Origin: Deltaproteobacteria bacterium
GTDB lineage: Bacteria; Desulfobacterota; Binatia; HRBIN30; JACQVA1
Length of the DNA: 64,000 nucleotides
Reading direction: 5' to 3'
Assembly: GCA_016178705.1 (NCBI GenBank)
Contig: JACOST010000009.1
Coordinates: 186,001-250,000 of the forward strand
Shown: positions 242 to 61,272 of the stretch, in pieces
Layout: every line of letters starts with the position of its first letter
Position numbering within the stretch: the stretch's first letter is position 1
Position numbers and translations under genes: made by a program
The notes under the pieces: generated by a model
The model's database searches: none
What the model was told of the DNA's origin: nothing
What the model saw: the letters and a program-made list of their open reading frames with translations, nothing else

Positions 242-1252
242 CTACTGCGCGGTGGCGCGCCGCAAACCCGTGCGGCGCAGCCATTTCACATTGTGATAGC
301 GCTCGTCTTCGTAGTCGCCGACACCGCCGCCGGCGATGGCCGCCCGCACCTCCCGAATTGCATCATCGACGGTATGCTGCGGGACGAATCCGAGTTGTTC
401 ACGGATACGATCGAAACTGACCCGGTAGCTACGCCGATCGCCGTTGCCGTTGGCATACTCCACCACGGTGTCGGGCAGATACTGGACTACCTTCTCGGCC
501 ACCTCACCGATGGTGAAGTTCTGCGACTCGTGACCGACGTTGAAGATTCCACCTTGTGCGGCATCGGACGGCGCCGACACTGCCGCCGCAAACGCGGCAG
601 CCGCATCGCGCACGTGCAGATGCGGGCGCCACTGATCGACGCCGAGAATGCGCACGCGGTGATCGACCGCCGCCCGCGCGGTAATCGTGTTGACCATCAG
701 ATCGAAGCGCATCCGCGTCGACAGGCCGCACACGGTGGCCAGACGCAGGATGATGACTTCCATCGGACCGCGTTCGTGCAACAACACCTCTTCCGACATA
801 ATGCGGGTGCGCGCGTACAAGGACACCGGATTGAGGTGCGAATCCTCCACGAGCAACTCCGTGCCGTTCGCTCCGTAGACGCTGCAGGATGAGGCGAACA
901 CCAAGCGCTGCACCTCGGCCTCACGGGCCGCATCGAGCAAACAGCGTGTGGACTCGAAGTTGATCATCATGGTCTCGCGTGGATCAACCTCGCAGGCCGG
1001 ATCGCCCACGACTGCCGCTAAGGCAACGACAGCGCGGACACCCTTCACCGCATGCGCTACGTCGCGAATGTTGCAGATGTCGCCGAACCGAACATCGAGC
1101 CGGGGATCCTCGCGCATATCGGCGATGCCATGATCACCGTACAGAAAATTATCCAGAATGCGGACGCGGAAGCCGTCGGCCAGCAGCGTGCGAGTCAGGT
1201 GGGAACCGACGTAGCCAGCCCCACCGGTCACCAAGACGATATCGTTGGACAT
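242..1252 (-). CDS. NAD-dependent sugar epimerase/dehydratase (extended SDR)
   Basis: Extended short-chain dehydrogenase of 336 residues, the usual length for nucleotide-sugar epimerases and dehydratases. The cofactor motif TGGAGYVGSH is at residues 9-18. The active-site region reads SCSVYG, followed by SLYARTR where most relatives have YxxxK. The catalytic Lys is therefore Arg here, a change I recall from other members of this subgroup that need not inactivate it. It probably makes or alters a nucleotide sugar for the surface polysaccharide. It lies 44 bp downstream of the phosphoglycosyl transferase fusion gene. The exact substrate is not inferable. Confidence 0.85.
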   Translation of the reverse strand: MSNDIVLVTGGAGYVGSHLTRTLLADGFRVRILDNFLYGDHGIADMREDPRLDVRFGDICNIRDVAHAVKGVRAVVALAAVVGDPACEVDPRETMMINFESTRCLLDAAREAEVQRLVFASSCSVYGANGTELLVEDSHLNPVSLYARTRIMSEEVLLHERGPMEVIILRLATVCGLSTRMRFDLMVNTITARAAVDHRVRILGVDQWRPHLHVRDAAAAFAAAVSAPSDAAQGGIFNVGHESQNFTIGEVAEKVVQYLPDTVVEYANGNGDRRSYRVSFDRIREQLGFVPQHTVDDAIREVRAAIAGGGVGDYEDERYHNVKWLRRTGLRRATAQ

Positions 1253-1296: not shown

Positions 1297-2697
1297 CTAG
1301 CGACGGGCAGCGCTGCGTTGCGGTGCATAGCCCGGGCGTTCGACGGTGAAGACGTCGGTGTTGAGCAAATCCGTCAGCGACGGCACCACGCGGTAGTCCA
1401 CCCCTTTGCGCTCACACATCCCCATCACTTCTTGCGCCTCACCATCCTGCAGATCGGAGAGGCACACGAACACTGCCTTGACATCGTTCGCCGACAGGGC
1501 GAGTGGCAACTCGGCGCGGCCGCCGAGCACACGAATGCCGTGAATCAGCGAGCCCCATCGGTCGGCCGATTCGTCGATGAACCCGATGGGCCGGTATGGC
1601 GACAGCGGATCTTCGAGCAGCATGCGGCTGATCTGTTCGCCACCGCTGCCGGCACCAACGATCAGCGCCGGCTGCTTGCGGGGCTGCTGCTGGCGCACGT
1701 CGCGCCGCACCCATCCGCGCAGCCCGTAGCGCAGGCTGCCCAATAGGAACAACACCAGCGCCCAATCGATCGCGAACACCGAGCGCGGAAATTTCTGCAG
1801 CCCGACGAAGAACGTGATGCCGGCGGTCACGACCGCGCTCAATGACACGGCCTTGAACATCGCCACCACGTCCCACAAGCCGAAATAAGCCGGGATCCCC
1901 TGATACGCGCCGTAGTACATGAGTGCGATCGGGCGCGCGAGCAGCACAATCAACATCGGTGGTAGCGCGAAGCGCGGATCGTCCGGCCAATCGCCTTCGT
2001 AGCGGATCAACACGGCAACCCAGAACGACAGCGCGGAGAGCAGCAAGTCCGCTCCGATCAGCGCGATGCGCCGGCGCCGGCGCCACAGGTACTTGGTCTT
2101 AATCGCGCCGCGCAACGTCACCCACAGGCCGTGCACGAGCAGCTTGAGATCGCCACTGAGCGTCGCAGTCTTCACATACTCCATGTCGCGCCCGAGCTTC
2201 TCCGACAGAATGTGATCGATGTAGTAGCGCTCGGTGTCCTTGAGGCCTTCGGGGTAGCTCTCCAACTCATCGCGGCCGAGAATCTGGCTCGGCCCAACGA
2301 TCCCCGGCCGCACCGACAGCGCGACGCGCTGCGCCGGCGTGTAGAACTGCACGAAGTGTGGGTCCTCCGGGCGCGGCCCGATCAGACTCATCTCGCCGAT
2401 CGCGACGTTGATGAGCTGCGGCAGCTCGTCGATCTTGAACCAGCGCAGAATCTGCCCGACCCGGGTCACGCGCGGGTCGCGCTTGGTGGTCAGGCGCGAG
2501 CCCATCCGATACGCGCCATCCACCATCGTGCGGAACTTGAAGATCGCGAAGAGCTGGCCGTTCAATCCCACACGACGTTGGCGAAAGAACACGGGGCCCG
2601 TCGAATCGAGCTTGATCATCACCGCCACCAGCAGCAGCAGCGGCAACAGGAAGATCAAGCCGAGCACGGCCAGCCCGCAGTCGAAGAAGCGCTTCAT
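1297..2697 (-). CDS. Phosphoglycosyl transferase fused to the N-terminal half of a CapD/WbaP-type membrane protein
   Basis: A 466-residue two-part protein. Residues 1-200 form a monotopic polyprenyl-phosphate sugar-1-phosphate transferase: hydrophobic anchor at residues 4-25, then DSTGPVFFRQRRVGLNG, FKFRTM, KIDELPQL and SLIGPRPE, all hallmarks of the PglC/WcaJ catalytic domain. After a basic stretch (LWRRRRR) come four membrane segments and a Rossmann-like CoA_binding_3 region (ALIVGAGSGGEQ, IGFIDES, GIRVLGG), as in the N-terminal half of CapD/FlaA1 or WbaP. No epimerase domain follows. In WbaP the membrane half comes first, so the order is reversed here. The ATG at 2697 overlaps the aminotransferase stop (ATGA), which fixes the start. 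It should load the first sugar phosphate onto undecaprenyl phosphate at the inner membrane. Confidence 0.85.
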   Translation of the reverse strand: MKRFFDCGLAVLGLIFLLPLLLLVAVMIKLDSTGPVFFRQRRVGLNGQLFAIFKFRTMVDGAYRMGSRLTTKRDPRVTRVGQILRWFKIDELPQLINVAIGEMSLIGPRPEDPHFVQFYTPAQRVALSVRPGIVGPSQILGRDELESYPEGLKDTERYYIDHILSEKLGRDMEYVKTATLSGDLKLLVHGLWVTLRGAIKTKYLWRRRRRIALIGADLLLSALSFWVAVLIRYEGDWPDDPRFALPPMLIVLLARPIALMYYGAYQGIPAYFGLWDVVAMFKAVSLSAVVTAGITFFVGLQKFPRSVFAIDWALVLFLLGSLRYGLRGWVRRDVRQQQPRKQPALIVGAGSGGEQISRMLLEDPLSPYRPIGFIDESADRWGSLIHGIRVLGGRAELPLALSANDVKAVFVCLSDLQDGEAQEVMGMCERKGVDYRVVPSLTDLLNTDVFTVERPGYAPQRSAARR

Positions 2698-3857
2698 GCT
2701 CGTGACCCACTTCCTTGCACCAGTCGACGAATCGCCCCGGCCACCCGCTCCGCGTCGCGCACAGACAGATCCGGATAGAGCGGAAGCGACAGCGTGCTCT
2801 CGGCGGCCGCCGTCGCGACCGGAAAGTCCGCGGGCTCCACGCCGAGGGCCCGACGAAAGTACGAGTGCAAATGGATGGGAATGAAGTGTTGGCTGGTGCC
2901 GATGCCGAGTTGCTTGAGTTCTTCGATCAAACGGTCGCGCGAAATCCTCGCGCTCGGACGTACCCGCAACACGTAGAGATGCCACGCATGCTTCACATCG
3001 GGGTGGACCATCGGCGTGCGGACTTCGGGGACATCGCGCAGACACGCGGTGTACGCCGCCGCCAGCCGCTCGCGCGCCAGCCGAAACTGCTCCATTTTCG
3101 GCAGCTGCACGAGCCCGAGCGCGGCGTTGATATCGGTCATGTTGTACTTGAACCCGGGATACTCGACGTCGTAGCGCCACGAACCCTCGGCGGTGTAGCG
3201 CCGCCACGCATCCCGACTCATGCCGTGCAGCCGGCGCGGCCGCAGCCGATCCGCCAAGTCGTCGTCATCGGTGGTCAGCATGCCACCTTCACCGGTGGTG
3301 ATGTTCTTCGTCGCATAGAAGCTGAACGCCGTGAGCGGACTGAGCGTGCCGATGGTTCGTCCATGAAACGCGGCGGGGAGCGCGTGCGCAGCGTCTTCGA
3401 GTACCAGGAGGCCGTGTTGCTTGGCGATGTCTGCAATCTGATCCATCTGCACCGGCTGACCGGCGAAATGAACTGGGACGATGGCTTTCGTGCGCGCGGT
3501 CACCTTGCGCCGCACCTCGTCGCAATCGATGTTGAGATCGTCGTCGCGGCAGTCGACCAACACTGGACGCGCGCCGGTATGAACGATGGTCGCCACCGTT
3601 GCCGTGAACGTGTAGGTCGTCGTGATGACCTCGTCGCCAGGGCCGATCCCGAGTGCATCGAGCCCGAGGTGCAGCGCGGCGGTGCAGGAACTGACGGCGA
3701 TCGCATGGCGGGCACCAATCGCAGCCGCAAACGCTTCCTCGAATTGCCGCGTCTTGGGACCCATCGTGATCCAGCCCGAGCGCAGCGTATCGACCACGGC
3801 GGCGATTTCCTCTTCGCCAATCGGCGGTCGATGAAACGGAATGTCAGTCTCTGCCAT
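2694..3857 (-). CDS. DegT/DnrJ/EryC1/StrS-family sugar aminotransferase
   Basis: PLP-dependent nucleotide-sugar aminotransferase of 387 residues, the standard family length. Visible landmarks are PPIGEEEIAAVVDTLRSGW near the N-terminus, SSCTAALHLGL (phosphate-binding region), VPVHFAGQPVQMDQI, LEDAAHA, and the Schiff-base lysine in SFYATKNITTGEGGM. It would transaminate a keto-nucleotide sugar to an amino sugar. The neighbouring acyl cassette (FkbH, ACP, MaoC, SDR) and the GNAT could then supply an N-acyl group to that amine. It overlaps the next gene by 4 bp (ATGA) and starts 12 bp after the SDR stop, so it is translationally linked in the operon. Confidence 0.93.
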   Translation of the reverse strand: MAETDIPFHRPPIGEEEIAAVVDTLRSGWITMGPKTRQFEEAFAAAIGARHAIAVSSCTAALHLGLDALGIGPGDEVITTTYTFTATVATIVHTGARPVLVDCRDDDLNIDCDEVRRKVTARTKAIVPVHFAGQPVQMDQIADIAKQHGLLVLEDAAHALPAAFHGRTIGTLSPLTAFSFYATKNITTGEGGMLTTDDDDLADRLRPRRLHGMSRDAWRRYTAEGSWRYDVEYPGFKYNMTDINAALGLVQLPKMEQFRLARERLAAAYTACLRDVPEVRTPMVHPDVKHAWHLYVLRVRPSARISRDRLIEELKQLGIGTSQHFIPIHLHSYFRRALGVEPADFPVATAAAESTLSLPLYPDLSVRDAERVAGAIRRLVQGSGSRA

Positions 3858-3869
3858 GGCCTCTAGTCC

Positions 3870-4625
3870 TCACTCCATCACGGTGCCACCGGCGATCGGC
3901 AGATCGACCCCGGTGACATAGGCACCCGCCTCAGAGGCGAGAAAGGCGACAGCACCCGCCACGTCCTCCCCGCTCGCCAATCGTTTGAGCGGGGCTTGCT
4001 GCGCAATCATCTGCTTCATTCGATCGGGCACAAATGCCGTAAGCTCCGTCGGCACCATCCCAGGCGATACGGTGTTCACGCGAACGCCGAAGGCGCCATA
4101 TTCAACCGCCAACGCGCGCGCCAACCCCCGCAAGGCCGCTTTGGCGGTAACGTAACTGCTCCATTGCGGCGGCGGCACGGCATGCGCCGCGGCGCTGCCG
4201 ACAAAGATCACCGCGCCATGCCGGCGTTCGGCCATTCCCGGCAAACAGACGCGGCATGCGTTGACGGCGCCGCGCACGGCGACATCGAAGTGCTGCTGAA
4301 AATCATCCCACCCGACCTCGGCGAACTTGGCCGGTTGCAAGCGCGCACCCGCATTGTGTACCAACACGGCAATGGGACCGATTTCGTCGTGCAGATAGCG
4401 CGCTGCCGCACGCAGCGCCTCCTCATCCCGCACGTCCGCACGAATGGCGAGCGCGCGCCCACCTGCCTCTTCTATCTCGCGCACGACATTGGCCGCGGCC
4501 TCTTCGTGTTCAAGAAAGTTGACCCCTACGGTCAGTCCCTCCTGGCTCAGCCGCCGGGCAATCGCCGCACCAACTCCGCGGCTTGCGCCCGTCACCAGCG
4601 CCACACCGGTTCGCGGGTCACTCAT
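3870..4625 (-). CDS. SDR-family oxidoreductase, FabG-like 3-oxoacyl reductase
   Basis: Classical short-chain dehydrogenase of 251 residues with the NADP motif TGASRGVGAAIA, a VHNAG motif, catalytic Ser in FVGSAAAH and YxxxK as SSYVTAKAAL. It ends with VTGVDLPIAGG, typical of FabG/PhaB reductases. The gene overlaps the MaoC gene by 4 bp (ATGA) and sits directly after MaoC and ACP genes, so reduction of a 3-oxoacyl group on ACP or CoA is more likely than sugar reduction. It may act with the adjacent hydratase to make a 3-hydroxyacyl substituent for the polysaccharide. That pathway assignment is inference. Confidence 0.88.
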   Translation of the reverse strand: MSDPRTGVALVTGASRGVGAAIARRLSQEGLTVGVNFLEHEEAAANVVREIEEAGGRALAIRADVRDEEALRAAARYLHDEIGPIAVLVHNAGARLQPAKFAEVGWDDFQQHFDVAVRGAVNACRVCLPGMAERRHGAVIFVGSAAAHAVPPPQWSSYVTAKAALRGLARALAVEYGAFGVRVNTVSPGMVPTELTAFVPDRMKQMIAQQAPLKRLASGEDVAGAVAFLASEAGAYVTGVDLPIAGGTVME

Positions 4626-5059
4626 GACAACACCATCACCTGTGCACGCCCGCGCACGACTTCTTCTCCAGCGTCATTGAGCGCCCAGGTGTCGAGATCG
4701 AGCATCTTCAAGCTGTCGGTCTTGCGCCGAACCCGGCCACGAAAGGTGATGCGCTCGCCGAGCCGAACCGGTTTCGCGAAGCGCACGTCTTGCGACAAGA
4801 ACACGGCGCGCCGACCGGGGAGATACATGCCAACCAGCGTCGAAAAGTAGGAGGCCACAAGCATTCCGTGCGCGACACGTTCACCGAATTGGGTCGTCGC
4901 GGCATAGACCCCATCCATGTGCAACGGATTGAAGTCGCCGGTGAGCGTGGCGAAGGTCGCCACGACCGCAGCGTCGATGACGCGGCTGAAGGACGCCTCC
5001 TCACCGGCCTGAATGCTGCCATAGCTCCGGTCGGGCGCGCGTGCGGGCTCGTCAATCAA
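4622..5059 (-). CDS. MaoC-like (R)-specific hydratase, hotdog fold
   Basis: A 145-residue single-hotdog protein. The catalytic Asp and His of (R)-specific enoyl hydratases appear in TGDFNPLHMD, followed by FGERVAHGML and later DVRFAKPVRLGERI, all characteristic of PhaJ/MaoC proteins. It should interconvert trans-2-enoyl and (R)-3-hydroxyacyl thioesters. It is overlapped by 8 bp with the ACP gene upstream and by 4 bp with the SDR gene downstream, so these three genes form a tight translational unit. No ketosynthase is visible, so chain elongation must be done elsewhere or may not occur. Confidence 0.88.
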   Translation of the reverse strand: MIDEPARAPDRSYGSIQAGEEASFSRVIDAAVVATFATLTGDFNPLHMDGVYAATTQFGERVAHGMLVASYFSTLVGMYLPGRRAVFLSQDVRFAKPVRLGERITFRGRVRRKTDSLKMLDLDTWALNDAGEEVVRGRAQVMVLS

Positions 5060-5285
5060 CTCTGACCCCTCGTTCGCGTAGCAGCGTAGCGAAGTCGCTC
5101 ACGCTGAGCACGTTGGTAATCTCGTCGGTGGTGAGCTGCACGCAGTAGGTCTCTTCGATCGCCGCAACCAATCGCATGTGATTGAGGGAATCCCACGGCG
5201 GCAGTACGAGCGGCCCCGTCTCCGGATTGACTTCACCAACATCGACCCCCAATATCTCCGCCACTAGCCCGCACAATTGATTCAT
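5052..5285 (-). CDS. Acyl carrier protein
   Basis: A 77-residue acidic carrier protein starting at the ATG at 5285, which overlaps the FkbH stop codon by one base (TGATG). The phosphopantetheine attachment serine is in PPWDSLNHMRLVAAIEE, matching the DSL motif of carrier proteins. Helix 3 region TTDEITNVLSVSDFATLL follows. A longer in-frame extension upstream is possible but has no ACP character. Lying directly after the FkbH-like gene, it is the likely acceptor of the acyl group that FkbH loads, and the substrate for the MaoC and SDR enzymes. Confidence 0.9.
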   Translation of the reverse strand: MNQLCGLVAEILGVDVGEVNPETGPLVLPPWDSLNHMRLVAAIEETYCVQLTTDEITNVLSVSDFATLLRERGVRVD

Positions 5286-7150
5286 CACCCCGCCGCTCCA
5301 CCGTCCGCCGCCACCCCAACCCGCGCCCACGGCGGCGCGGCGACACGAAAGTCAGCCAGATCCGCCTGCCACACCTCGGCATCATCCACGCGTCCGGCCG
5401 ACACGAATCCATGCCGAGCGTAGAACTCGCGGACCTGCTCATTCTTCGGCGTGGCGACATAGCGGCCGCGCAGTTGTGTCGCGCCCGCTTGCCGCGCGAG
5501 GTCGACGATGTAGGCCAATACGCCGGTCTCGATCGAGCGACCGAGCACACGGCAGCTGAGCAGAAACGTGTCGATGTCGCAGAAGGTGCCCTCGAAGCGC
5601 AGCACCGCGAGGCCAACGACTCCGCTGTCGCCCAGGCGATCGCGCACGCGCACACCCACAACGCGATGGCTGCGCTGGTCGATCATGGCGTCGAACTCCG
5701 CCTCACTGTAGCGGCGGTTCGTCAGATTGAACTGATTGGTCTTGTGCACGAGTTGGAACAGCCGCGTCCGGACCGCACCCTCAGCGGGCACGGCCGCGAT
5801 CTCCATGGCGAGGCCCATCAGGTAGCTCTCAAGCGAGCCGGCTTCGTGACGCACCTGCTCACGCGCGCGGCGCTCGTGATACATGCGGCTCCGCGCGCGA
5901 TCCTCCGCCGTAACCTGCAACGTATCGAACGCCGTCAGCTGCAGCAGCGTGCCGCGATAGAGGGCGGGGTCGCGCGGGAGATCGACGACCAGAACTTCGG
6001 GTAGACGCTCGCGCACATTCTGACGCTCGAACGGATCGTCGTCAGCGAACACCAAGCTGTCGAGTCCAATGTTCAAATCAGCGGCCACGGCGCGCAGGTT
6101 TTGCACCTTATCGAGCCAGTTCACGCGCACGGTGGCGAAATGCTCGGGCCGGAGCACCATGCCGGGGTGCTCGCGCACGACCGCCAGGGCCTCGGCTTCG
6201 TCGTTGCGGCTGCACAGCGCCAGCAACACTCCACGTTGATGCAACGCAAGAATCGCCTGCTGAAATTCACGGAAGCCTTCACCGGCGGCATCACCGCCCA
6301 GACGGAGGCGCGCGACGCCGTCTTCACCGAGGATGCCGCCCCACAGCGTATTGTCGAGATCGAGCACCAAGCACTTGCGCGCCGGCCCGACAGTGGCACG
6401 CAGATAGCGGACAATCTCGCTGCCGAGGCGCGGCAAGAAACCGGTCGCGAATGGCTGATCCGCGAGGAGACGCATCCGCTGATCGAAGGCACGTTCGCGA
6501 CCGAACGTCGCGGTCAGGCCTGCCACGTCCATCACGTACACGCGTTCATGCGCATGCGCCCAATCTGCCAGCCCATGATTGAGCTCTTCCACGGCCCGCG
6601 CGACGCCAGTCAATTCTTGCCAATCGAGGACGCCGAGCGGCGACGCCTCGAACGGGGCCACGTTGCTCACCACGAGAGTGGCCCGGGTTCGCTCGCGGAG
6701 CGCGGCCAGCAGCTCCGCCAACTCAGCTAGTCCGCTCGCGACAACCAGGCGCCGCGTCGCACTGTCTTGCCAGGGCTCCGCCACAACACCCGGCGCAATC
6801 GCCGACAACGACAACATGATCACGATCACGTCGGGCCGAAATTGATGCAACCCACTCGCCGGGTCGAGGATCTGCTTCGCCTGCTCATTGTACGGCGCCA
6901 CGTAGAGCTCGATGGGGCAACCTTGCACGTGCGCCTGAACGACCACGCAGGTCGCCACTGGTTCGACCGTGAAATTGCTCAGCACGGCCACCCGGCGAGC
7001 ATCGCGCGGCAGCGGTTCGCCCTGAGCACGCAGCTGCGCCAGCGCGCGACAATGGTTGGCGTAGGTCGGCTCGCGCCGCACGGCATCGAAGATGGCCGCG
7101 AGATCCACGACGACTCCGTTGTTCACCTGTGTCGCCTCTGCCCCGCGCAT
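5285..7150 (-). CDS. FkbH-like HAD-superfamily protein with C-terminal GNAT domain
   Basis: A 621-residue protein with the three-part layout of FkbH-like enzymes. An N-terminal alpha/beta region (RVAVLSNFTVEP, PDVIVIMLS) covers about residues 1-250. The HAD-IIIC catalytic motif CLVLDLDNTLWGGILGEDG follows, then a GNAT-like C-terminal domain (HKTNQFNLTNRRYSEAEF, SCRVLGRSIETG, KNEQVREFYARHGF). Characterised relatives take 1,3-bisphosphoglycerate and load a glyceryl group on an ACP. The start at 7150 was chosen because its ATG shares one base with the GNAT stop codon (TGATG); the longer in-frame extension looks noncoding. It is followed by the ACP, MaoC and SDR genes, an acyl-building cassette inside a polysaccharide operon. 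Confidence 0.88.
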   Translation of the reverse strand: MRGAEATQVNNGVVVDLAAIFDAVRREPTYANHCRALAQLRAQGEPLPRDARRVAVLSNFTVEPVATCVVVQAHVQGCPIELYVAPYNEQAKQILDPASGLHQFRPDVIVIMLSLSAIAPGVVAEPWQDSATRRLVVASGLAELAELLAALRERTRATLVVSNVAPFEASPLGVLDWQELTGVARAVEELNHGLADWAHAHERVYVMDVAGLTATFGRERAFDQRMRLLADQPFATGFLPRLGSEIVRYLRATVGPARKCLVLDLDNTLWGGILGEDGVARLRLGGDAAGEGFREFQQAILALHQRGVLLALCSRNDEAEALAVVREHPGMVLRPEHFATVRVNWLDKVQNLRAVAADLNIGLDSLVFADDDPFERQNVRERLPEVLVVDLPRDPALYRGTLLQLTAFDTLQVTAEDRARSRMYHERRAREQVRHEAGSLESYLMGLAMEIAAVPAEGAVRTRLFQLVHKTNQFNLTNRRYSEAEFDAMIDQRSHRVVGVRVRDRLGDSGVVGLAVLRFEGTFCDIDTFLLSCRVLGRSIETGVLAYIVDLARQAGATQLRGRYVATPKNEQVREFYARHGFVSAGRVDDAEVWQADLADFRVAAPPWARVGVAADGGAAG

Positions 7151-7857
7151 CACGCCTGTCCTACGGTCGCGCCGGCCTCGTCGCGAACCGACTGGAGCGG
7201 CAAAACGAACACCGCTTGTTGCTTGCCATTCTCGCTGACGCGCTCGCCGATCCGCCGGAAGCCGAGCACGCGGTGAATCCACATCGAGGGCTGGTTATCG
7301 ATTTCGGGCGTCGAGAAGATCTCCGCCACTCCGCGCGCTTGCAGTTCGTGAATCATCTCCTTGATCAGCGGGAAGATCAGCCCGCTGCCGCGGAACGCGG
7401 GCGCGACCGCTTGTGATCGCCAGGTGAACCGTCGCGCCGGCGACTCGGCCGGGGCAGCGGTATTCGTGCGCCGCCACACAGCGACCGCACGCTTGAGCAA
7501 CAATTCACGCAAGCGCGGCTGGGTTGCGAGCACGCGCGCGATCCCCACCAGCACCACCACTGGATGCCGGCGGGCGATGTCCCGCACGAACCCTTCGCCA
7601 ATTGCGCCGTTGACGGCGGCTACGACCCGACCATCGACTTCCGCCACCAGCGAAACGCAGCGAGGCGAACGGGCGTAGCTGCGATACACCGCGCGCAGCA
7701 CCTTTGACCCCATCGCGGTAAGCAACGCATCGGGGTAACACGCTTGGTGCAAGGCAACGACTTGCTCCACATCCCCCTCCGACATCGGCCGCAGCGTATA
7801 GGCGGGCTGTACCACCCGCCCGTCGTCGACATCTTCTCGCACTCGAGCCAGTGTCAC
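7150..7857 (-). CDS. GNAT-family N-acetyltransferase
   Basis: A 235-residue GNAT-fold protein: TLRPMSEGDVEQVVALHQACYPDA at the N-terminus, RCVSLVAEVDGRVVAAVNGAI (strand 4 region), SQAVAPAFRGSGLIFPLIKEMI (acyl-CoA pyrophosphate-binding loop, degenerate) and MWIHRVLGFRRIGER at the C-terminus. The start is a GTG at 7857 with a purine-rich AGGCGGA just upstream; an in-frame ATG 24 codons later is an alternative. It probably acylates an amino sugar of the polysaccharide repeat, but the substrate is unproven. It sits 7 bp after the methyltransferase gene. Confidence 0.8.
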   Translation of the reverse strand: MTLARVREDVDDGRVVQPAYTLRPMSEGDVEQVVALHQACYPDALLTAMGSKVLRAVYRSYARSPRCVSLVAEVDGRVVAAVNGAIGEGFVRDIARRHPVVVLVGIARVLATQPRLRELLLKRAVAVWRRTNTAAPAESPARRFTWRSQAVAPAFRGSGLIFPLIKEMIHELQARGVAEIFSTPEIDNQPSMWIHRVLGFRRIGERVSENGKQQAVFVLPLQSVRDEAGATVGQA

Positions 7858-7864
7858 GTTCCGC

Positions 7865-8953
7865 CTACTTCTGCGCCATGATCAGCAACAATGGCGCGAG
7901 CGCCTCGGGATCGAAGGTCATCGTCAACACCATGCGTGCAAATGCTTTGGCCCGCTCGGCCAACGGCAACTCGCGCGGCACGCTCGTGCGTTCGCTGCGG
8001 CAACTTGGGCTGTTCCAGTGACACACCACGCGAACGTCCCGAAAACCTAGCCGCAACAGCTCGAGGCGGAGTTCCTGGCCATCGAGGCCGACGCCGGGTT
8101 TGTCGTGATACTCGGTCAGTTCGACCAACGGTTCCTGTTCGCTCGTGTGGAGATGCGACCGCATCGGAAGGCCGAGCGCCCGACCAACCCGCGTCGCGAA
8201 TCCAACCGCCCGCCCGTAACCAACGCGCAGCCACTCGACACGCGCCATGCGGCGGCGCGCATCCGCGTTCGGATCCCAATCGGTGTACAGCACGCCCCCT
8301 GGCTTCATCACGCGCGCAATTTGGGCCAGCAGGGCTTTGGGATCATACAAATGATGCAACACGGAGAAGACGGACACGGCATCGACCGTGCCGGGGCGAA
8401 ACGGGATGGCGTCGGCCGCGCCACCCACGACACGCAAACCGCGCGCGCGCGATAGTGCGAGCATGCCGGGAGATACGTCCATACCGATGGCACGGCCAAA
8501 GTGTCGCGCCGCGTGGCCAAGGATGTTTCCGGTGCCGCAGCCGATGTCGAGAAAGACGTCGCCGCTCGTTCGGCTACGCATCTCTTGAACCGCTTCATCG
8601 ATACGCCGCTGACAGGTCGGGCCAAAGATGCCCTTGGTCGAGCGATCCTGTTCATAGTCCGGCGCCATCACGTTGTGAAAGTAGATGTTCGCGACTGTCA
8701 CGCGCTCCGGCTCCGGCAACTTCAGTGCGTCGAGCGCGGCTGCGGCTTCCTCTGGCGCAAGGCGCGTCCCGCGCGCGGTCCCGGCCGCGCCCATGAGGAG
8801 ATACGGCACCCCGTCTTCAATCGGATAGCGCTCGCGACACCCACAGGTCAGAGTCCCGGCAACGATGTCGCCGTCGTGCTCTTCGCTGATCGTCACGGCC
8901 AGCGCACCGCCGCAACGAGGGCAGGCAAGAATATCTAAGAGTTCCCGTTCCAT
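7865..8953 (-). CDS. SAM-dependent methyltransferase with N-terminal Trm112-like zinc domain
   Basis: A 362-residue protein. Residues 1-55 are a Trm112-like zinc ribbon (LLDILACPRCGGAL, then TCGCRERYPIEDGVPYLL). The class I methyltransferase core carries motif I VFLDIGCGTGNILG, AIGMDVSPGMLALSRARG, and AVSVFSVLHHLYDPKALL, typical of the Methyltransf_11 type. It probably methylates a sugar or lipid-linked intermediate of the polysaccharide. It is 3 bp from the preceding FemAB-like gene and 7 bp from the GNAT gene, so it belongs to the same operon. Confidence 0.87.
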   Translation of the reverse strand: MERELLDILACPRCGGALAVTISEEHDGDIVAGTLTCGCRERYPIEDGVPYLLMGAAGTARGTRLAPEEAAAALDALKLPEPERVTVANIYFHNVMAPDYEQDRSTKGIFGPTCQRRIDEAVQEMRSRTSGDVFLDIGCGTGNILGHAARHFGRAIGMDVSPGMLALSRARGLRVVGGAADAIPFRPGTVDAVSVFSVLHHLYDPKALLAQIARVMKPGGVLYTDWDPNADARRRMARVEWLRVGYGRAVGFATRVGRALGLPMRSHLHTSEQEPLVELTEYHDKPGVGLDGQELRLELLRLGFRDVRVVCHWNSPSCRSERTSVPRELPLAERAKAFARMVLTMTFDPEALAPLLLIMAQK

Positions 8954-8956
8954 ACC

Positions 8957-9877
8957 CTAGTGCGCTGGCTGCGTGTCGGATCGCCACGGCAGCGGCGTCG
9001 AATCTTCCCGCATGAAGTCGATGATCCCCGCCAGCTTGCGCCAGCCCGGATGTACCCCCGGCCGCTCGGCGTACCAACGCACTACCCGTCCGACGGTCGG
9101 CGCCCGCAGCAGTCCCGCCAGACCGGGCCGCACTACGATACGTTGGCGCAGCGGTCGATGCCGGAATCCCATCGCGAACTTGAACTGATCGAGCGCATCC
9201 ACCGGCTCGAGCGATTCGAGTCCGAACGTGATCTCGGCAACAGTCGGACGCTCGAGCGTCGCGCGCGCAACCGTATAGATGAGTGCGTTGTTGGGGTATT
9301 GGCCAAGATAGGCGTTACATGACCGGGCGAGCAGAAACTCGCAGCGGTCTTCGAGTTGTACCGTCAACAGGTACGCCGCCAACTGATCGTCTACGAATGC
9401 GCCCCACGCTTCCATTTCAGGCGCTTGCGCGGCCGCTGCCCAATATCGTTCCCAGTGCTGCCGCGCCGCCGCGCCATCCGATGGGGCCCGATCCTGCCTC
9501 TGCATGGTGTCGAGATGGGCTCGACGGCCGTCGCGCGCAATGAGCGCACAGTCCACTCGCTCAACTCGGCAACGGCGCAACCCGCGCCGAACCTTGCTGC
9601 GCGTGTTGGGGCTCAAGCGCTCAACGTCGTAGGGCCGCTCGTCACAAACGATTTGATAACTCAAGCGGCCCGGACCGTTCGGTGGTGCGACGAAGCGGGC
9701 GCCGAACCCGCGACCATCACGCATCACCTGACGCAGTTCGCCGGCATCGGGGGTGATCACACGATGAAAAGGCAAACTGAGAAAGAAGCGCGGTCCGGCA
9801 TCGAACCACTCGCCGCTGGACGTCGTAACGACGCGGTGGCCGATGGCTGAAAGAAACGTCGCGAAGGGACTGGCCAT
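8957..9877 (-). CDS. FemAB/GNAT-like acyltransferase (Acetyltransf_6 type)
   Basis: A 306-residue protein resembling the FemAB-related GNAT proteins found beside exopolysaccharide genes. Visible features are SYQIVCDERPYDVERLSPNTRSK near residue 75, RRGLRRCRVE, a middle region EMEAWGAFVDDQLAAYLLTVQLEDRCEFLLARS, and YPNNALIYTVARATLER. FemAB proteins transfer amino acids or acyl groups to cell-wall or polysaccharide acceptors. The specific reaction cannot be told here. Neighbours are a GT4 gene upstream (8 bp gap) and the methyltransferase downstream. Confidence 0.7.
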   Translation of the reverse strand: MASPFATFLSAIGHRVVTTSSGEWFDAGPRFFLSLPFHRVITPDAGELRQVMRDGRGFGARFVAPPNGPGRLSYQIVCDERPYDVERLSPNTRSKVRRGLRRCRVERVDCALIARDGRRAHLDTMQRQDRAPSDGAAARQHWERYWAAAAQAPEMEAWGAFVDDQLAAYLLTVQLEDRCEFLLARSCNAYLGQYPNNALIYTVARATLERPTVAEITFGLESLEPVDALDQFKFAMGFRHRPLRQRIVVRPGLAGLLRAPTVGRVVRWYAERPGVHPGWRKLAGIIDFMREDSTPLPWRSDTQPAH

Positions 9878-9885
9878 TGCAAGCC

Positions 9886-11292
9886 TCAGCTCGCCATCGC
9901 CGCGGGCGCTACCGCTGCTCGGCCATCACCAAGCAGCGCATCCACGTCGCCATCGGGTCGACCGGCGGCACGCATGAGATCCGCGAGTTGCTCGATGTTG
10001 GCCTCGCGATCGAAGTATCGCTGGACAAAGCGCTGTCCCTCCACCGCCAAGCGTTCTCGTTGTGCCGGGTCGCGCAGCAGGTCGGCAATCGCCTCTGCCA
10101 GCTCTTCCGGGCGCTCGGGCCGCACCAGACGGCCGGTGTGACCATCTTGCACCAACTCCCGCACACCTCCCACATCCGACGCGATGACCGGCACGCGCGA
10201 CGCGAGAGCCTCGACCAGCACGTTCGGGATTACGTCTTGCTTGCCGTACCGTCGCACAACGACGCTCGCGAGCACGAAGACCGTGGCCTCGGCCATCAGC
10301 GCCGCCAGTTTCGCCTGCGTCATCGCGCCGACAAAATGTACACGACTTCCCACGCCGAGCCGTTCGGCCAAGGTTTCGAGTTCCGCGCGTTGCGGCCCTT
10401 CGCCGACGAGTTGGCACTCGAACACCAAGCCCTGTTCCATCAAGTGGGCACACGCTTGCAACAAGACGTGCATGCCTTTGTAGCGTTCGAGACGGCCGCA
10501 GGTGAGCACCAGCGGGACCGGTCGCGCGGCGCGTGGTCGATAGGCGAATCGCTGCAAGTCGGCGCCGTGATAGTTCACCACCAACTTGCGCCGATCCGCC
10601 TGGAATGTGTCCGCCAGATACGTGGCGTTAGTGGCCGCACAGGTGACGACAAAGCGTGCCGCCCGTAGCTTGGCCGACAGCAGGTATTGGGTCATGTAGA
10701 TATCATAGGCGTGGGCCGTGAAGCTGAATTCGATACCGTAGAGTCGATGTACGACATATGCCACTGTGGCCGGATAGCTCGCCCAGTGCGCGTGCAGATG
10801 GCGAACACCGTCTTGTTGCAGCGTGCAACCGAGGTGCACACTTTTCCATGCGAGTACCAACGACTTGAGCAGGAACAACACTGGATTGGTGTTGTAGAAG
10901 CCGAGCGCTCGCTCGCGCAGGCCCATACGCTCGGGCGCCACATCCGCAGTCGAGCGGTGCCGGTCGTCGCGCCACTCACGCGTGAGATCACGGAACACAC
11001 CGAAGTAGCGACCAGGTTGTCGGACAAGGGTGACAAAGTTGCTCCGCCACATGCGCGGATGGAGCGCCCATGGCAAGTACGTCACTTCGGCGCGCAGAGT
11101 AGCCGCCTCCGGCTGCTGGGCTTCATCAGCGGCCGGCCGCTTCAGGGAATAGAGTCGAATCGGGACCTGGCGCGCGCGCAAAGCCAGCACTTCCCAGAGC
11201 ACAAAGGTTTGGTGCAGGACCGGGAAGGCCGGGAACACATACGCGACGGCCGGGGCCATGTCCCGCCGCTCCACCCGTCGATCCGGATTCAT
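9886..11292 (-). CDS. GT4-family glycosyltransferase
   Basis: A 468-residue GT-B glycosyltransferase. The N-terminal half contains VAYVFPAFPVLHQTFVLWEV and HLHAHWASYPATVAYVVHRLYG. The C-terminal GT4 domain has VLTCGRLERYKGMHVLL, LVGEGPQRAELE, VHFVGAMTQAKL and PNVLVEALASRVPVIASDVGGVRELV, including the E-x7-E type nucleotide-sugar site. It is related to WcaL-type transferases of exopolysaccharide clusters. It starts at an ATG overlapping the O-antigen ligase stop (ATGA). It would add a sugar to the lipid-linked repeat on the cytoplasmic face. Confidence 0.92.
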   Translation of the reverse strand: MNPDRRVERRDMAPAVAYVFPAFPVLHQTFVLWEVLALRARQVPIRLYSLKRPAADEAQQPEAATLRAEVTYLPWALHPRMWRSNFVTLVRQPGRYFGVFRDLTREWRDDRHRSTADVAPERMGLRERALGFYNTNPVLFLLKSLVLAWKSVHLGCTLQQDGVRHLHAHWASYPATVAYVVHRLYGIEFSFTAHAYDIYMTQYLLSAKLRAARFVVTCAATNATYLADTFQADRRKLVVNYHGADLQRFAYRPRAARPVPLVLTCGRLERYKGMHVLLQACAHLMEQGLVFECQLVGEGPQRAELETLAERLGVGSRVHFVGAMTQAKLAALMAEATVFVLASVVVRRYGKQDVIPNVLVEALASRVPVIASDVGGVRELVQDGHTGRLVRPERPEELAEAIADLLRDPAQRERLAVEGQRFVQRYFDREANIEQLADLMRAAGRPDGDVDALLGDGRAAVAPAAMAS

Positions 11293-12725
11293 GACATCGC
11301 GCGACTACGAGCTTCCGCGTACCGCCGCACCACGATCCCGAGCCCGACTAGCCAAAACAGCACAATAGATTGCCACAGATCGGCTACCAAGGAGAACACC
11401 GCGATGGCGATCACCCCGGTCCGCGCGCCACTCACGATCCAGTTGAGGTCGCGCACGCGCCGCGCTGGCGGTAAGAGTTGCTGCGCCACCGAAAGGTTTT
11501 GAAACGTGCACCAGAACAACGCGACAAACGAGAGCAGGCAAAAAATTCCGCCCTCCGCCATGGCCAATATGGGCGAACTGTGCGGCGGCGCCGTCGAACG
11601 CGCCGGATCATTAATGAAGCGGACGATTTCCCAATTGCCGGCACCGACGCCCAGGAGCAAATTGTCGCGCACAATCTCGTAGCCGACCTCAAAGGTGTAG
11701 GCGCGTCGTTCCAGCGAACCGGTCCCCACCGCACCGGTCGACGCGGCACTGCCTGGCAGGTTACCGAGCCGCTCCAAATTCTTCTCCGGCACGACCTGTA
11801 GCACCAAGGCCGCGGTGACCACGCCGACCAAGCCAAGTGCCAACAGGCGACGCAAGGAGACGCCTTCCTCGATCACGATGAAGGCCACGCAGGCGAACAA
11901 CCCGAGCATTCCGCTGCGCGAGGCGGTCATCATGACCGTGATCGCCAGCAGCACGATGAGCCCCAGCAGAGAGATCTGTCCGACACGACTACGAACTTGT
12001 CGCCGCAGATACCAGAGCGCCCCGATGCAGATGATGGCGTACATCGCCACTCGATTGGGGTTACCCGCCTGAGCGATGCCGCCTTGCACGACACTGGACG
12101 CGCGACTCCCGTACAAACCCCCACTTGTCAGACCGCCCTGCAACCCAGACAACGCACTCATCACCATCATGGCGATCACCAGCAGATACACCAGCCGCAT
12201 CTGCGCCGGGGTGCGAATGAACGTCGCGAAGAACAGCACGAAGGCGACGCGGTTGAGGTACAGCCGCGCCGCGATATTTCGTTCAGTCGGGCCAATCAAT
12301 TCCGCCAGGCGGCTCTCGGGGCCATTGAACATCTCCGACACGGCGTAGCAGAGCGCGATGAAGAGCAGGAGTTGCATCTCGCGGCTGCGCAGGAACCACC
12401 AATCGTCGCGGGCGCGGATGCGGTAGGCGAGCAGCACCAGAAACAACAACCCCAGCATGTTGTTGATGGTGAGGAAGCCCGACCCCTGCAAAGCCTGCGG
12501 ATACGTCACCAAGAAGGTCGACAGAAATAGCACGATGCCGATTTCGGGGCGTGTCACCACGAGCGTGACCAACATCAGGCCGGTGATCGCGAAAAACCAG
12601 GCTCCGGTGCCGAGCGCAACGTCAGCAACGACCGCGAACAGCGCAACGAAGGCCAAACCGATCAACGGTCCGGTAGAGATTGGGGAGGCCGCAGAACGGC
12701 CTCTGACGGCAACGGCTTGAGGCAC
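11289..12725 (-). CDS. O-antigen ligase/polymerase family membrane protein
   Basis: A 478-residue polytopic membrane protein with about ten hydrophobic segments, beginning with GLAFVALFAVVADVAL and AWFFAITGLMLVTLVV. The Wzy_C-type loop is visible late in the protein: RRAYTFEVGYEIVRDN, LLLGVGAGNWEI and APPHSSPILAMAEGG, with the conserved region around a His. It could polymerise repeat units (Wzy) or ligate them (WaaL-like); sequence alone does not decide, though the linked Wzz/Wza genes favour a polymerase. The start is a GTG at 12725 with only a weak ribosome binding site. Confidence 0.85.
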   Translation of the reverse strand: MPQAVAVRGRSAASPISTGPLIGLAFVALFAVVADVALGTGAWFFAITGLMLVTLVVTRPEIGIVLFLSTFLVTYPQALQGSGFLTINNMLGLLFLVLLAYRIRARDDWWFLRSREMQLLLFIALCYAVSEMFNGPESRLAELIGPTERNIAARLYLNRVAFVLFFATFIRTPAQMRLVYLLVIAMMVMSALSGLQGGLTSGGLYGSRASSVVQGGIAQAGNPNRVAMYAIICIGALWYLRRQVRSRVGQISLLGLIVLLAITVMMTASRSGMLGLFACVAFIVIEEGVSLRRLLALGLVGVVTAALVLQVVPEKNLERLGNLPGSAASTGAVGTGSLERRAYTFEVGYEIVRDNLLLGVGAGNWEIVRFINDPARSTAPPHSSPILAMAEGGIFCLLSFVALFWCTFQNLSVAQQLLPPARRVRDLNWIVSGARTGVIAIAVFSLVADLWQSIVLFWLVGLGIVVRRYAEARSRAMS

Positions 12726-12746
12726 AAGGTCTCGCTTGAACGGTCG

Positions 12747-13478
12747 TTACAACAAGCTCTCGAGAAACGCGGGAATGTACGATCGGCGCCGATTCAGCAC
12801 GACGCCGAGAATTCGAGCATCCACCTTGTCGAGTTGACGCTTGGCGGCTTCGGCTTCGGTCACCGGTGTGCGATCGGCCTCGACGACGAGGATCACCCCG
12901 TCAACCTTGGGCGCCAGAACCGAGGCATCCGCATAGCCGTTGACCGGCGGTGAATCGATGACGATGAAATCGAACTGCGGCCGGAGTCGTACCAGCAACG
13001 TCGCGACGTGCTCGAGATCCATGCTGCGCCGGCTCGGGGCGCCGGCAACAATGACCGACAGATTGAGCGTGTCGACGCGCGAAATAACCGCTTCGGCGCT
13101 CAACTGTCCGTTGATGAAATCGGTCAGGCCGCCGTTGGAGGCAACCGGCAGCATGCGTGCCAGACTCGGCATCCGCAGATTGCCCTCCACCAATAGCACG
13201 CGGGTTTCTCGTTCCTTGGCCAGGGCCGTAGCAAGTCCGATGGCCACGGTGCTGGCTCCCTCCCCATGGCGTGCCGCCGTGACCAAGATTGTGTGCAATG
13301 AGGAGGGGCTGAGACCGGAGACAAGGCTGGCCCGCAATCGCTGATAGTCCTCCGACGCGGCTTCGGTCGCGGTCAGCCCGCCTAGACCACCGCCAGGCGC
13401 GCCCGCCGCCGGCCCGTTCCAGCGCGACCGATCGCGTTCCTCCTCGGCCTTCTTCAGCGCTTCGTATATCTTACTCAA
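12747..13478 (-). CDS. CpsD/BY-kinase-like ATPase with altered Walker A motif
   Basis: A 243-residue relative of the tyrosine autokinases that pair with Wzz proteins. It begins MSKIYEALKKAEEER, typical of exopolysaccharide autokinases, and ends GVVLNRRRSYIPAFLESLL. The Walker A region reads RHGEGASTVA: the Lys of GEGKS/T is Ala (codon GCC at about 13252). The Walker A-prime region is LLVEGNLRMP instead of LLIDAD, while Walker B FIVIDSPP is kept. There is no C-terminal tyrosine cluster, only one Tyr. It may be a non-catalytic regulator of the adjacent Wzz protein rather than an active kinase. Confidence 0.82.
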   Translation of the reverse strand: MSKIYEALKKAEEERDRSRWNGPAAGAPGGGLGGLTATEAASEDYQRLRASLVSGLSPSSLHTILVTAARHGEGASTVAIGLATALAKERETRVLLVEGNLRMPSLARMLPVASNGGLTDFINGQLSAEAVISRVDTLNLSVIVAGAPSRRSMDLEHVATLLVRLRPQFDFIVIDSPPVNGYADASVLAPKVDGVILVVEADRTPVTEAEAAKRQLDKVDARILGVVLNRRRSYIPAFLESLL

Positions 13479-13498
13479 GGCCCGTCCCCGTCCACCGG

Positions 13499-15115
13499 TT
13501 ACGCCTGGGTGTAGTCCGCAATGCTGCCCAGCAGCGGCAACCCGAGGTGTTGCTCGACATCGTACTCCGAGCGCAGCGAACGGTTCAGGTATTCCAACCC
13601 AAACGCACCGCCGAGACTAACCGCGATGCCTGAAATGAGCGAGAGAAGGACGGAGACCCGTTGATTGTCTGCGCGCTGGAGTGGCAGCGCAGGCCGCTGC
13701 ACGACATCGACGTTGATCAGTCGTTCTTGATCCATGGCTTCGCTGATGCGCGCCTCCTGTTCGCGTTTAACGTACAACTCGAATGCATCCCGGCGGTTCT
13801 TCACTTCTTGATCGAGGCGATCGTACTCAAGCGCCTTTTGCCGCAAGAAGATGAGGCGCCGACCGATACGCACGGAATCTTCTTCGAGGGTGGCGCGGCG
13901 CGCGCGCATCTCCTTCAGCGAACCCTCCATGTCGAGCAAGACCCGCAGCCGGTCTTCCCGTACCGGGTTGGTGCGCAACATCTGCCGCGCTACGACCGTC
14001 GGCCGATCGCGCAGTTCGTCATCAAGCTGCGTTTGAAGCTCGCTGATCTCCTGGGCGTTGTCGCGCACGTGACGATCCTTGTCGGTGTACTTTTGCAACA
14101 AGTTCACGCGATCGACCTGCCGATCAACCAGCTGTTGCGTGAGCTGGGTCACCACCGGGTTTACTTCGAGGTACTGATAACGCTTGATGATCGGGGGTTG
14201 ATCCGCCAGCTGTTGCTGTACTACGCGGAGCTTTTCTTCCGTCCCATTGATGTTCGCGTTGACGTCGCGCAGCGTCCCATCAAGGTCGGCGCTCGACTTC
14301 ACCGTCGCCTGAATCTCGTCGCGTGGCGCCACAACCCCGACGCTCTCCGCATATTCCTTGAGTGCGTCCTCGCCGCTACGCAGGCGCTTCTCGAGATCGC
14401 GGCGCTGGTCTTCGTAGAAGCGCGCCAGACCCTTATTGCCGTGCACCTCGGCATGGTAGGCGAGGTACTCGTCGACCACACGATTGACCACTTGCGCAGC
14501 GGCTTCCGGGGCGCTGGCCTTGTAATCGATCTGGATCACGTTGGAGGCCTTGATCGGCGTCACCACCAGCGCGGTATCCAGAGCCACCGCGCGCGCACCG
14601 AGATCGATGCCGTTGTCCTTGTCCTTCAAGCTGGCGTTCTCGACCCGCGCCGTACCGTTGCCATCACCATAAGCGAGACCGCGCACAACCTGGTCCAGCA
14701 TTTGACGACTGCGGATGATATGGACCTCGGAGTTCACCGCTGACTCATTCAGTTCAACGGTGGCGAGCTTGGTCATGTCGGTCGACTGAACCACGGCATC
14801 GCCGCGCTGCGTGGTGATCAACACCTTCGCGCTGGCTACATACTTGGGTTTGCTGAAGACCGACACCGCAAGTCCTGGTAGCGCCACAACGATGAAGAGC
14901 CCGAGGATGAGTCGCTTGCGCTTGAACAAGACGTGGAAGATTTCGCGCACTTGCTCGCTACCCGTGAGCGTACGCGTGCTACCGTTCCCATTCCCATTCC
15001 CATGGCCGTTGCCATTGCCGTTGCCATTGCCAAGAACGTTCCCGTTGGCGTTCCCATTGCCATGACCGTTACCGTGGCCGCTGCCGTTACGCGGGCGTTG
15101 TATCTCGTGTGCCAT
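13499..15115 (-). CDS. Wzz/GumC-type polysaccharide chain-length determinant with Gly-Asn-rich N-terminus
   Basis: A 538-residue polysaccharide co-polymerase. An N-terminal cytoplasmic tail (about residues 8-47) is almost entirely Gly-Asn dipeptides with some His, encoded by a degenerate 6-bp repeat. The first membrane helix follows (KRLILGLFIVVALPGLAVSVF), then a Wzz domain, long periplasmic coiled coils (about residues 190-440) and a second helix VLLSLISGIAVSLGGAFGLEYL. The end (LRSEYDVEQHLGLPLLGSI) matches GNVR-type exopolysaccharide proteins. It controls chain length and works with Wza downstream of the polymerase. It lies 20 bp from the CpsD-like gene. Confidence 0.9.
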   Translation of the reverse strand: MAHEIQRPRNGSGHGNGHGNGNANGNVLGNGNGNGNGHGNGNGNGSTRTLTGSEQVREIFHVLFKRKRLILGLFIVVALPGLAVSVFSKPKYVASAKVLITTQRGDAVVQSTDMTKLATVELNESAVNSEVHIIRSRQMLDQVVRGLAYGDGNGTARVENASLKDKDNGIDLGARAVALDTALVVTPIKASNVIQIDYKASAPEAAAQVVNRVVDEYLAYHAEVHGNKGLARFYEDQRRDLEKRLRSGEDALKEYAESVGVVAPRDEIQATVKSSADLDGTLRDVNANINGTEEKLRVVQQQLADQPPIIKRYQYLEVNPVVTQLTQQLVDRQVDRVNLLQKYTDKDRHVRDNAQEISELQTQLDDELRDRPTVVARQMLRTNPVREDRLRVLLDMEGSLKEMRARRATLEEDSVRIGRRLIFLRQKALEYDRLDQEVKNRRDAFELYVKREQEARISEAMDQERLINVDVVQRPALPLQRADNQRVSVLLSLISGIAVSLGGAFGLEYLNRSLRSEYDVEQHLGLPLLGSIADYTQA

Positions 15116-15133
15116 AGGGATCCGTTGACTAAC

Positions 15134-15841
15134 TTACGGGGCGAAGCCGATGCCAACCCGCGGAGGAACCGGCAGCATGCGGCGAATGTAGAGATCGACG
15201 AAGGCGTTGATGTCGCCGATGGTGGTGCGTGGGACAAAGATCATGTCGCGCGCCGCCAGTTGCACCGATTCGGGCTCACCCTGCAACACGCGAGTCAAAT
15301 CCACCTTGGTCGCCTGATAGTCCTTCTCGCCAACAGTGATATGAACGACGCTGTCCACGCGGGCAATATCAGTAAAGCCACCCCTGTCCATGATCGCTTG
15401 CAACGCGGTCAGTCCGGGCCGATACGGCACAAACCCGGGCAGCCGCACTTCACCGGTCACATAAACCTTCTGCTCGCCCAATTCTGCCACGATCACCGTG
15501 ACTTCAGGGTCACGCAAGTGTTCGCTCGAGTGCTGGCGAACGACTTCAGCGAGCTGATTCGTCGTCAACCCACCCGCCATCACCTCGCCCACATCCTGCA
15601 GCGTGATGTTCCCGTCGGGACGCACAGGCAACTTCACGTCGAGTTCCGGGTGATAGAGAAACTTGATGCGCAGCACATCGCCTGGCTGCAGCCGGTACTC
15701 GGCTTCGTGAATCGGCCCGCCCACTGACGCGTCGAGCGCCGGCAACGGCACCGGCGCGACCGGACGCGGCCGACCACAGCCCGCTCCCACGACCAGAGCG
15801 AGCGACAAACCCGCAATATAGCTCCACGCACACGTCTTCAT
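15134..15841 (-). CDS. Wza-like polysaccharide export outer-membrane lipoprotein
   Basis: A 235-residue protein with a lipoprotein signal peptide (lipobox VVGAGC, Cys at residue 22). The mature part has a Poly_export domain (EYRLQPGDVLRIKFLYHPELDVKLPVRPDGNITLQDVGEV) and an SLBB region (VYVTGEVRLPGFVPYRPGLTALQAIMDRGGF). Together with the Wzz protein it forms the envelope-spanning export channel, which indicates a Gram-negative cell plan. The ATG overlaps the preceding GT4 stop (ATGA). It is shorter than E. coli Wza, as is usual for exopolysaccharide versions. Confidence 0.93.
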   Translation of the reverse strand: MKTCAWSYIAGLSLALVVGAGCGRPRPVAPVPLPALDASVGGPIHEAEYRLQPGDVLRIKFLYHPELDVKLPVRPDGNITLQDVGEVMAGGLTTNQLAEVVRQHSSEHLRDPEVTVIVAELGEQKVYVTGEVRLPGFVPYRPGLTALQAIMDRGGFTDIARVDSVVHITVGEKDYQATKVDLTRVLQGEPESVQLAARDMIFVPRTTIGDINAFVDLYIRRMLPVPPRVGIGFAP

Positions 15842-31134: not shown

Positions 31135-31364
31135 CGCACTCCCACTTCAGTTCCGCGTCCAATCACCAGATCGGCTGCCTTCGCGGGCGCTGTGTGCTGC
31201 GCTTCATCACACGAGGCATCGCAACGCGGGCGTTCATGTCCTGTTCCTGTCCCTGCCACGAATGATGGTCCTTGGAGTCCATTCCTTGCGCTCGCGTCCT
31301 GGCGAGTCTCGTTTCAACACCCCTTGGCCGCAATTCTATTGGAAGAAGGTCTAGATGCACCCGC

Positions 31365-58758: not shown

Positions 58759-58830
58759 TGCCCGTCTCCTTTCATCCATCAAACGATTACCCGCTGCGTG
58801 CAATCGCTCCATGATTTCCACCTCGTCGCC

Positions 58831-59907: not shown

Positions 59908-59968
59908 GGCCTTCCTCCTTTTGTACGCATACCCGTGGCCTGTTCGCTCATCCGCGGCCCCATCGCCG

Positions 59969-61216: not shown

Positions 61217-61272
61217 TGCCGATCTCCTTTCTCTGCAGGACCCGTGTCTCATGGTTGCCACAATCAGGCCCG

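Follow-up and report, generated by a model that had tools for sequence, protein, structure and literature searches.

A candidate lactyl-ACP cassette in a surface-polysaccharide operon of a Binatia bacterium

The cassette operon and its gene products

We analyzed a 64,000-nt window of a Deltaproteobacteria bacterium genome (GTDB class Binatia; assembly GCA_016178705.1, contig JACOST010000009.1), in which genes for an FkbH-type enzyme, an acyl carrier protein (ACP), a MaoC-type hydratase/dehydratase, and a short-chain dehydrogenase (SDR) form a compact cassette. Coordinates given below are positions in this window, and the genes of the cassette operon are all on the minus strand. The order GNAT, FkbH, ACP, MaoC, SDR, DegT forms a single tight operon, with overlaps of 1 bp (GNAT/FkbH), 1 bp (FkbH/ACP), 8 bp (ACP/MaoC), and 4 bp (MaoC/SDR) and a gap of 12 bp between the SDR and DegT genes. 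The letters TGATG occur at both the GNAT/FkbH and FkbH/ACP junctions, ATGA occurs at the MaoC/SDR junction, and the TTG start of the MaoC gene is preceded by GAGGGG, which resembles a ribosome site. These coordinates and the family scores that follow confirm an original prediction, made by a model from the letters alone, of four coupled genes beside a DegT aminotransferase and a GNAT. No Rfam match was found in the window.

The FkbH-type HAD-IIIC enzyme (5285-7150) consists of an SGNH-like N-terminal domain (FkbH_N), a HAD phosphatase domain, and a C-terminal GNAT-like domain, and scored 308 bits against TIGR01686 (curated cut-off 146.65) and 60 bits against PF21211 (cut-off 27). Its DLDNTLW (HAD DxDxT), TNQFN, and SCR (conserved cysteine) motifs are common to the 15 cassette FkbHs that were aligned, and its closest solved structure is BF1531 (3slr, E 3e-58). 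As expected for the family, the partner ACP gene (5052-5285) is directly adjacent with a 1-bp overlap; it encodes a 77-residue protein (PF00550, 29.7 bits, cut-off 20.8) with a WDSL attachment site. The MaoC-type (R)-specific hydratase/dehydratase (4622-5059; PF01575, 77.5 bits, cut-off 27) has an intact GDFNPLH motif and is closest among solved structures to the (R)-specific enoyl-CoA hydratases 5cpg and 1iq6, and the FabG-like SDR (3870-4625; PF13561, 189.6 bits, cut-off 27) contains the TGxxxGxG and S-Y-K motifs. Judged by sequence, all four cassette proteins therefore carry recognizable catalytic motifs. The remaining operon genes encode a GNAT acyltransferase (7150-7857; PF00583, 31.5 bits, cut-off 20.7) and a DegT/ArnB/PseC-like sugar aminotransferase (2694-3857; PF01041, 442 bits, cut-off 19.8), whose closest solved structures are the ArnB aminotransferases 8sng and 1mdo.

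Downstream of the cassette are genes for a phosphoglycosyltransferase, an epimerase, a Gfo/Idh/MocA oxidoreductase, and a flippase-like protein; on the upstream side are Wza/Wzc-like genes, a ligase, and glycosyltransferases. The TIGR01686 score, the adjacent ACP gene, and these flanking glycan genes bear out the predicted acyl-loading FkbH with its own ACP inside a polysaccharide operon. The prediction had also held that the chain is short for lack of a ketosynthase, and had named synteny with a ketosynthase-containing polyketide cluster as its refutation. In keeping with the former, no PF00109 or PF08541 match was present on the 323-kb contig, and, as to the latter, a ketosynthase was found at 0/15 FkbH-MaoC loci within the stretch examined at each. 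Because ketosynthases were absent from the contig and from these 15 loci, the acyl group probably stays C3. The 6.1-Mb genome has 12 MaoC matches, two of which adjoin its only two FkbH genes; the chance of both FkbH genes having a MaoC neighbor is about 8e-5 by rough estimate, and the pairing is thus not a chance one.

A second cassette and recurrence in other genomes

The two FkbH genes of this genome are about 31 kb apart, and both have adjacent MaoC and SDR genes. The second cassette (L033:10390-19618), on the same contig outside the window, has the order SGNH-like, MBOAT, MaoC, SDR, FkbH, ACP, MBOAT, SGNH-like. Because MBOAT and SGNH-like genes flank it on both sides, its arrangement suggests O-acylation using the same carrier-bound group. 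The MBOATs terminate in the FIY-type hexapeptides FIYVRF and FIYFQF, and these ends resemble the acyl-tyrosine shuttle hexapeptide motif described for MBOAT/SGNH pairs in a source whose compared portion does not give the motif letters (PMC12148441). This second cassette alone is like the Dlt and PatAB acylation systems in having a carrier-bound acyl group (as in DltC), an MBOAT with an F-I-Y hexapeptide-like end, and an SGNH-like partner, but differs from them in that FkbH would load the acyl group and two MBOATs flank the set.

The original prediction had proposed looking for the FkbH-ACP-MaoC-SDR-DegT set in other polysaccharide loci, and FkbH-ACP-MaoC-SDR does recur, both in this second copy and elsewhere. 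Collecting loci by FkbH alone across 145 relatives and 395 genomes from the phylum yielded 43 good FkbH loci, with an ACP neighbor in 24, MaoC in 9, a strong SDR in 7, and both MaoC and SDR in 6. An SDR was present in 6/9 MaoC-bearing loci and MaoC in 6/7 strong-SDR loci, a co-occurrence with a hypergeometric p of about 9e-5 across the 43 loci (relatedness not removed). Ketosynthases were found in 0/9 FkbH-MaoC loci among the 43. At two loci (L043:7269-13457 and L048:4105-8628), FkbH-ACP-MaoC occurs with no SDR and a B12/radical-SAM-like gene follows the ACP gene, perhaps a variant that makes C-methylated glycerate (compare corramycin).

Fusions link the cassette proteins in several genomes. 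In G034 and G027 (L061, L062), genes for Wza, Wzc, a kinase, a ligase, and a glycosyltransferase are followed by FkbH, ACP, and a fused MaoC-SDR, a fusion also present in L087. L070, L071, and L095 encode MaoC-SDR-ACP fusions together with fusions of an AAC(3)-type N-acyltransferase (Antibiotic_NAT, 72-90 bits, cut-off 25) to FkbH. Plasmids of Maritalea and Sinorhizobium RAC02 carry both kinds of fusion beside NeuB-type genes. On plasmids of Erwinia and Rahnella, these fusions or their split forms occur in a cluster that has no glycosyltransferase genes. There (L094:6294-15937, Rahnella; L095:3030-14022, Erwinia), AAC(3)-FkbH and MaoC-SDR(-ACP) stand beside genes for an aminotransferase-nucleotidyltransferase, a CDP-alcohol transferase, an ATP-grasp protein, and an MFS protein, and this may be a small-molecule cluster, as yet unexplored, that employs the same module. 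Niveispirillum encodes FkbH, ACP, and WcbI together with a protein whose parts resemble MaoC and SDR, and a Subdoligranulum (Clostridia) plasmid (L098) has separate FkbH-ACP-MaoC-SDR genes in the order seen in the window. The cassette extends beyond relatives to Alphaproteobacteria, Enterobacterales, and a Clostridia plasmid. A MaoC-SDR query retrieved the Erwinia, Rahnella, and Subdoligranulum loci, which stand outside the unbiased 43-locus count. Glycan-type loci house most of the other copies. An FkbH protein query of genome contigs returned a single distant locus only, and the FkbH-ACP genes of one gut "phage" record (L100) were set aside, as the record is an unverified scaffold whose neighboring genes look bacterial.

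FkbH-ACP pairs without MaoC or SDR are common in polysaccharide loci, as in Sinorhizobium meliloti pSymB and Rhodobacteraceae SC52. In pSymB (L064:5267-10302), genes for an MBOAT, a protein annotated as a TonB-dependent receptor, an ACP, and FkbH lie beside capsule export genes, and this set, in a species much studied in the laboratory, is a candidate for glyceryl O-acylation.

On a tree of 57 FkbH sequences, the MaoC label changes five times, and at least three changes are forced by well-supported branches. FkbH-MaoC pairing therefore probably arose more than once, and losses may also account for some label changes. A single clade of the window FkbH and FkbHs of the second-cassette type was rejected by the approximately unbiased test (p 0.001), leaving descent of all cassettes as one inherited unit unsupported.

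Proposed function and alternatives

We think it fairly probable, from the combined analyses, that the cassette makes lactyl-ACP for a surface polysaccharide. FkbH proteins reportedly load glyceryl derived from 1,3-bisphosphoglycerate onto ACPs (PMC7489565), and by this family function the window FkbH would take glyceryl from 1,3-bisphosphoglycerate, dephosphorylate it, and load it onto the ACP. According to a review, bifunctional dehydratase-ketoreductase (DH-KR) proteins of the FR901464 and lankacidin pathways turn glyceryl-S-ACP into lactyl-S-ACP (PMC4765723, citing He et al., 2014), and a pathway-reconstruction paper has FkbH loading end in D-lactate-ACP (PMC7901079). By analogy with this conversion, known in bacteria that make antibiotics, MaoC would eliminate water between C2 and C3 of glyceryl-ACP, giving 2-hydroxyacrylyl/pyruvyl-ACP, and the SDR would reduce the C2 ketone of pyruvyl-ACP to give lactyl-ACP. 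The GNAT, a candidate transferase by its operon position, would then move lactyl onto an amino sugar, for which the DegT aminotransferase is the proposed source of the amino group, and the lactylated sugar would join the polysaccharide. The best hint of an amine acceptor, in some systems, comes from the AAC(3)-FkbH fusions. In the second cassette, the same acyl group would go to the MBOAT/SGNH pairs for O-acylation. Because a dehydratase and a ketoreductase accompany FkbH and ACP and no ketosynthase does, lactyl-ACP is a better fit than either a polyketide or unmodified glyceryl. The predicted acylation of an amino sugar appears probable with DegT and GNAT genes in the operon; the predicted product, a hydroxyacyl or glyceryl group, was right as to acyl loading but incomplete, as it gave no role to MaoC and SDR, whose joint presence points to lactyl-ACP.

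Among the characterized systems close to the cassette are the lactyl starter modules of FR901464 and lankacidin, where FkbH and ACP likewise accompany a dehydratase and a ketoreductase, which there convert glyceryl-ACP; gene content and fusions in the cassettes agree with such joint action. DH-KR is one protein there, and MaoC and SDR are fused in relatives of the window cassette. Those modules feed a ketosynthase-driven polyketide line, however, whereas the window has polysaccharide genes and a single-domain MaoC-type dehydratase; with no PF00109 or PF08541 match on the contig, the cassette would work like such a module but is not a member of the group. The wfp R-group genes for the Qui2NAc4NR O-antigen of Flavobacterium psychrophilum also include a polysaccharide-specific ACP, a ketoreductase, and an acyltransferase for an N-acyl amino sugar. 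That pathway uses the ketosynthases WfpC and WfpE and a PglD-like acyltransferase and makes a C6 chain, and neither FkbH nor MaoC is mentioned in the compared portion of the text; the window operon instead has no ketosynthase, and beside its DegT aminotransferase it encodes a GNAT as the candidate acyltransferase. FkbGHIJK-type genes for hydroxymalonyl/methoxymalonyl-ACP share FkbH and a free-standing ACP that make glyceryl-ACP, but there two dehydrogenases oxidize C3 and O-methylation takes place, whereas the window has MaoC and SDR. We rejected this role because the marker gene, for an acyl-CoA dehydrogenase, was not found among the scanned neighbors of the cassette. Tetronate glycerate-utilization genes share the FkbH and ACP pair but need a FabH-like ketosynthase III, and that role was rejected because none is present on the contig or in the 15 loci.

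Several points weigh against lactyl-ACP for a polysaccharide. What we observed is gene content, gene order, motifs, fusions, ketosynthase absence, and recurrence; the individual chemical steps are what we infer, as are the role of the GNAT as transferase and that of the DegT product as acceptor. The DH of the characterized DH-KR proteins may be a domain of the polyketide-synthase type rather than MaoC, and the likeness is one of described function. Three of the nine FkbH-MaoC loci (L043, L048, L084) have no strong SDR nearby. MaoC thus occurs at times without an SDR partner, and L070, L071, L094, and L095 lack the second MaoC motif (HG). The window GNAT is not homologous to unclassified proteins beside other cassettes (L061, L084, L098), and for this dissimilarity we rejected a single GNAT family traveling with the cassette. 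Our literature search found no N-lactoyl sugars and no paper describing an FkbH-ACP-MaoC-SDR lactyl cassette for polysaccharides; searches for FkbH with O-antigen returned nothing, and those for FkbH with polysaccharide and ACP returned off-topic results only.

The three SDR-lacking loci would suit a cassette that makes and transfers to sugar another C3 or modified-glyceryl group, such as glyceryl, pyruvyl, 3-hydroxypropionyl, or an oxidized group if the SDR ran in reverse, and glyceryl is the simplest product of the many polysaccharide loci in which FkbH-ACP stands without MaoC and SDR. We regard this as unlikely for the window, as it leaves unexplained why MaoC and SDR co-occur and are fused to each other and to ACP, and as the lactyl conversion has biochemical precedent. 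It is rather unlikely, too, that the substrate of SDR and MaoC is a 3-oxo/3-hydroxyacyl chain (for example, 3-hydroxybutyryl) from the fatty-acid synthase of the cell, with FkbH as a transferase or other loader. The FabG-like character of the SDR and the resemblance of MaoC to (R)-specific enoyl-CoA hydratases agree with such chemistry, and the F. psychrophilum O-antigen pathway employs an ACP together with a ketoacyl reductase to make a 3,5-dihydroxyhexanoyl amide (PMC6519341). That pathway has dedicated ketosynthases, however, which 0/15 loci have here, and FkbH would be superfluous.

It seems very improbable that the cassette supplies the starter or a building block of a secreted small molecule rather than serving the polysaccharide. 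The fused versions on Erwinia and Rahnella plasmids, beside ATP-grasp, aminotransferase-nucleotidyltransferase, and transporter genes and without glycosyltransferases, may be such a system, but the window cassette belongs to an uninterrupted operon that also encodes a phosphoglycosyltransferase, Wza/Wzc-like export proteins, and a flippase-like protein, and glycan-type loci hold most other copies.

More tentatively than lactyl-ACP formation in the window itself, we suggest that a widespread, repeatedly assembled route from 1,3-bisphosphoglycerate to lactyl-ACP might serve N- and O-lactoylation of surface glycans, and that the two copies in one cluster supply different transferases. If so, surface polysaccharides would share a starter-unit module with polyketides, and acyl decoration could be predicted from gene content, with FkbH-ACP alone suggesting glyceryl and FkbH-ACP-MaoC-SDR suggesting lactoyl. 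The partner transferase would suggest the linkage (GNAT or AAC(3)-type, N; MBOAT/SGNH, O). Few rules of this kind exist for the non-acetyl substituents of bacterial polysaccharides, and these substituents can affect antigenicity (PMC6519341).

Flanking genes and other features

The phosphoglycosyltransferase gene (1297-2697, minus strand; Bac_transf, PF02397, 185 bits; CoA_binding_3, PF13727, 54 bits) overlaps the DegT gene by 4 bp. Its product has the phosphoglycosyltransferase domain at the N-terminus and the membrane and CoA_binding_3 domains after it, the reverse of the usual order in exopolysaccharide sugar transferases. The NAD-dependent epimerase/dehydratase family protein (242-1252, minus strand, the operon direction; PF01370, 153 bits) has YxxxR (YARTR) in place of the usual YxxxK of its family. 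Upstream, 7865-17133 (minus strand) encodes a methyltransferase, a FemAB-like GNAT, a glycosyltransferase, a ligase, a tyrosine kinase, Wzc-like and Wza-like proteins, and a glycosyltransferase; the first two names come from Pfam and the others from the sequence and matches to L061/L062 homologues.

Farther along the window, a gene run at 31272-35509, judged by eye only, resembles coenzyme F420 biosynthesis (CofG/CofH-, CofD-, and CofE-like). Four adjacent paralogous open reading frames for secreted-like proteins occupy 57505-62595 and are flanked by Ser/Thr-Pro-rich repeat open reading frames (54951-56939 and 62843-63991).

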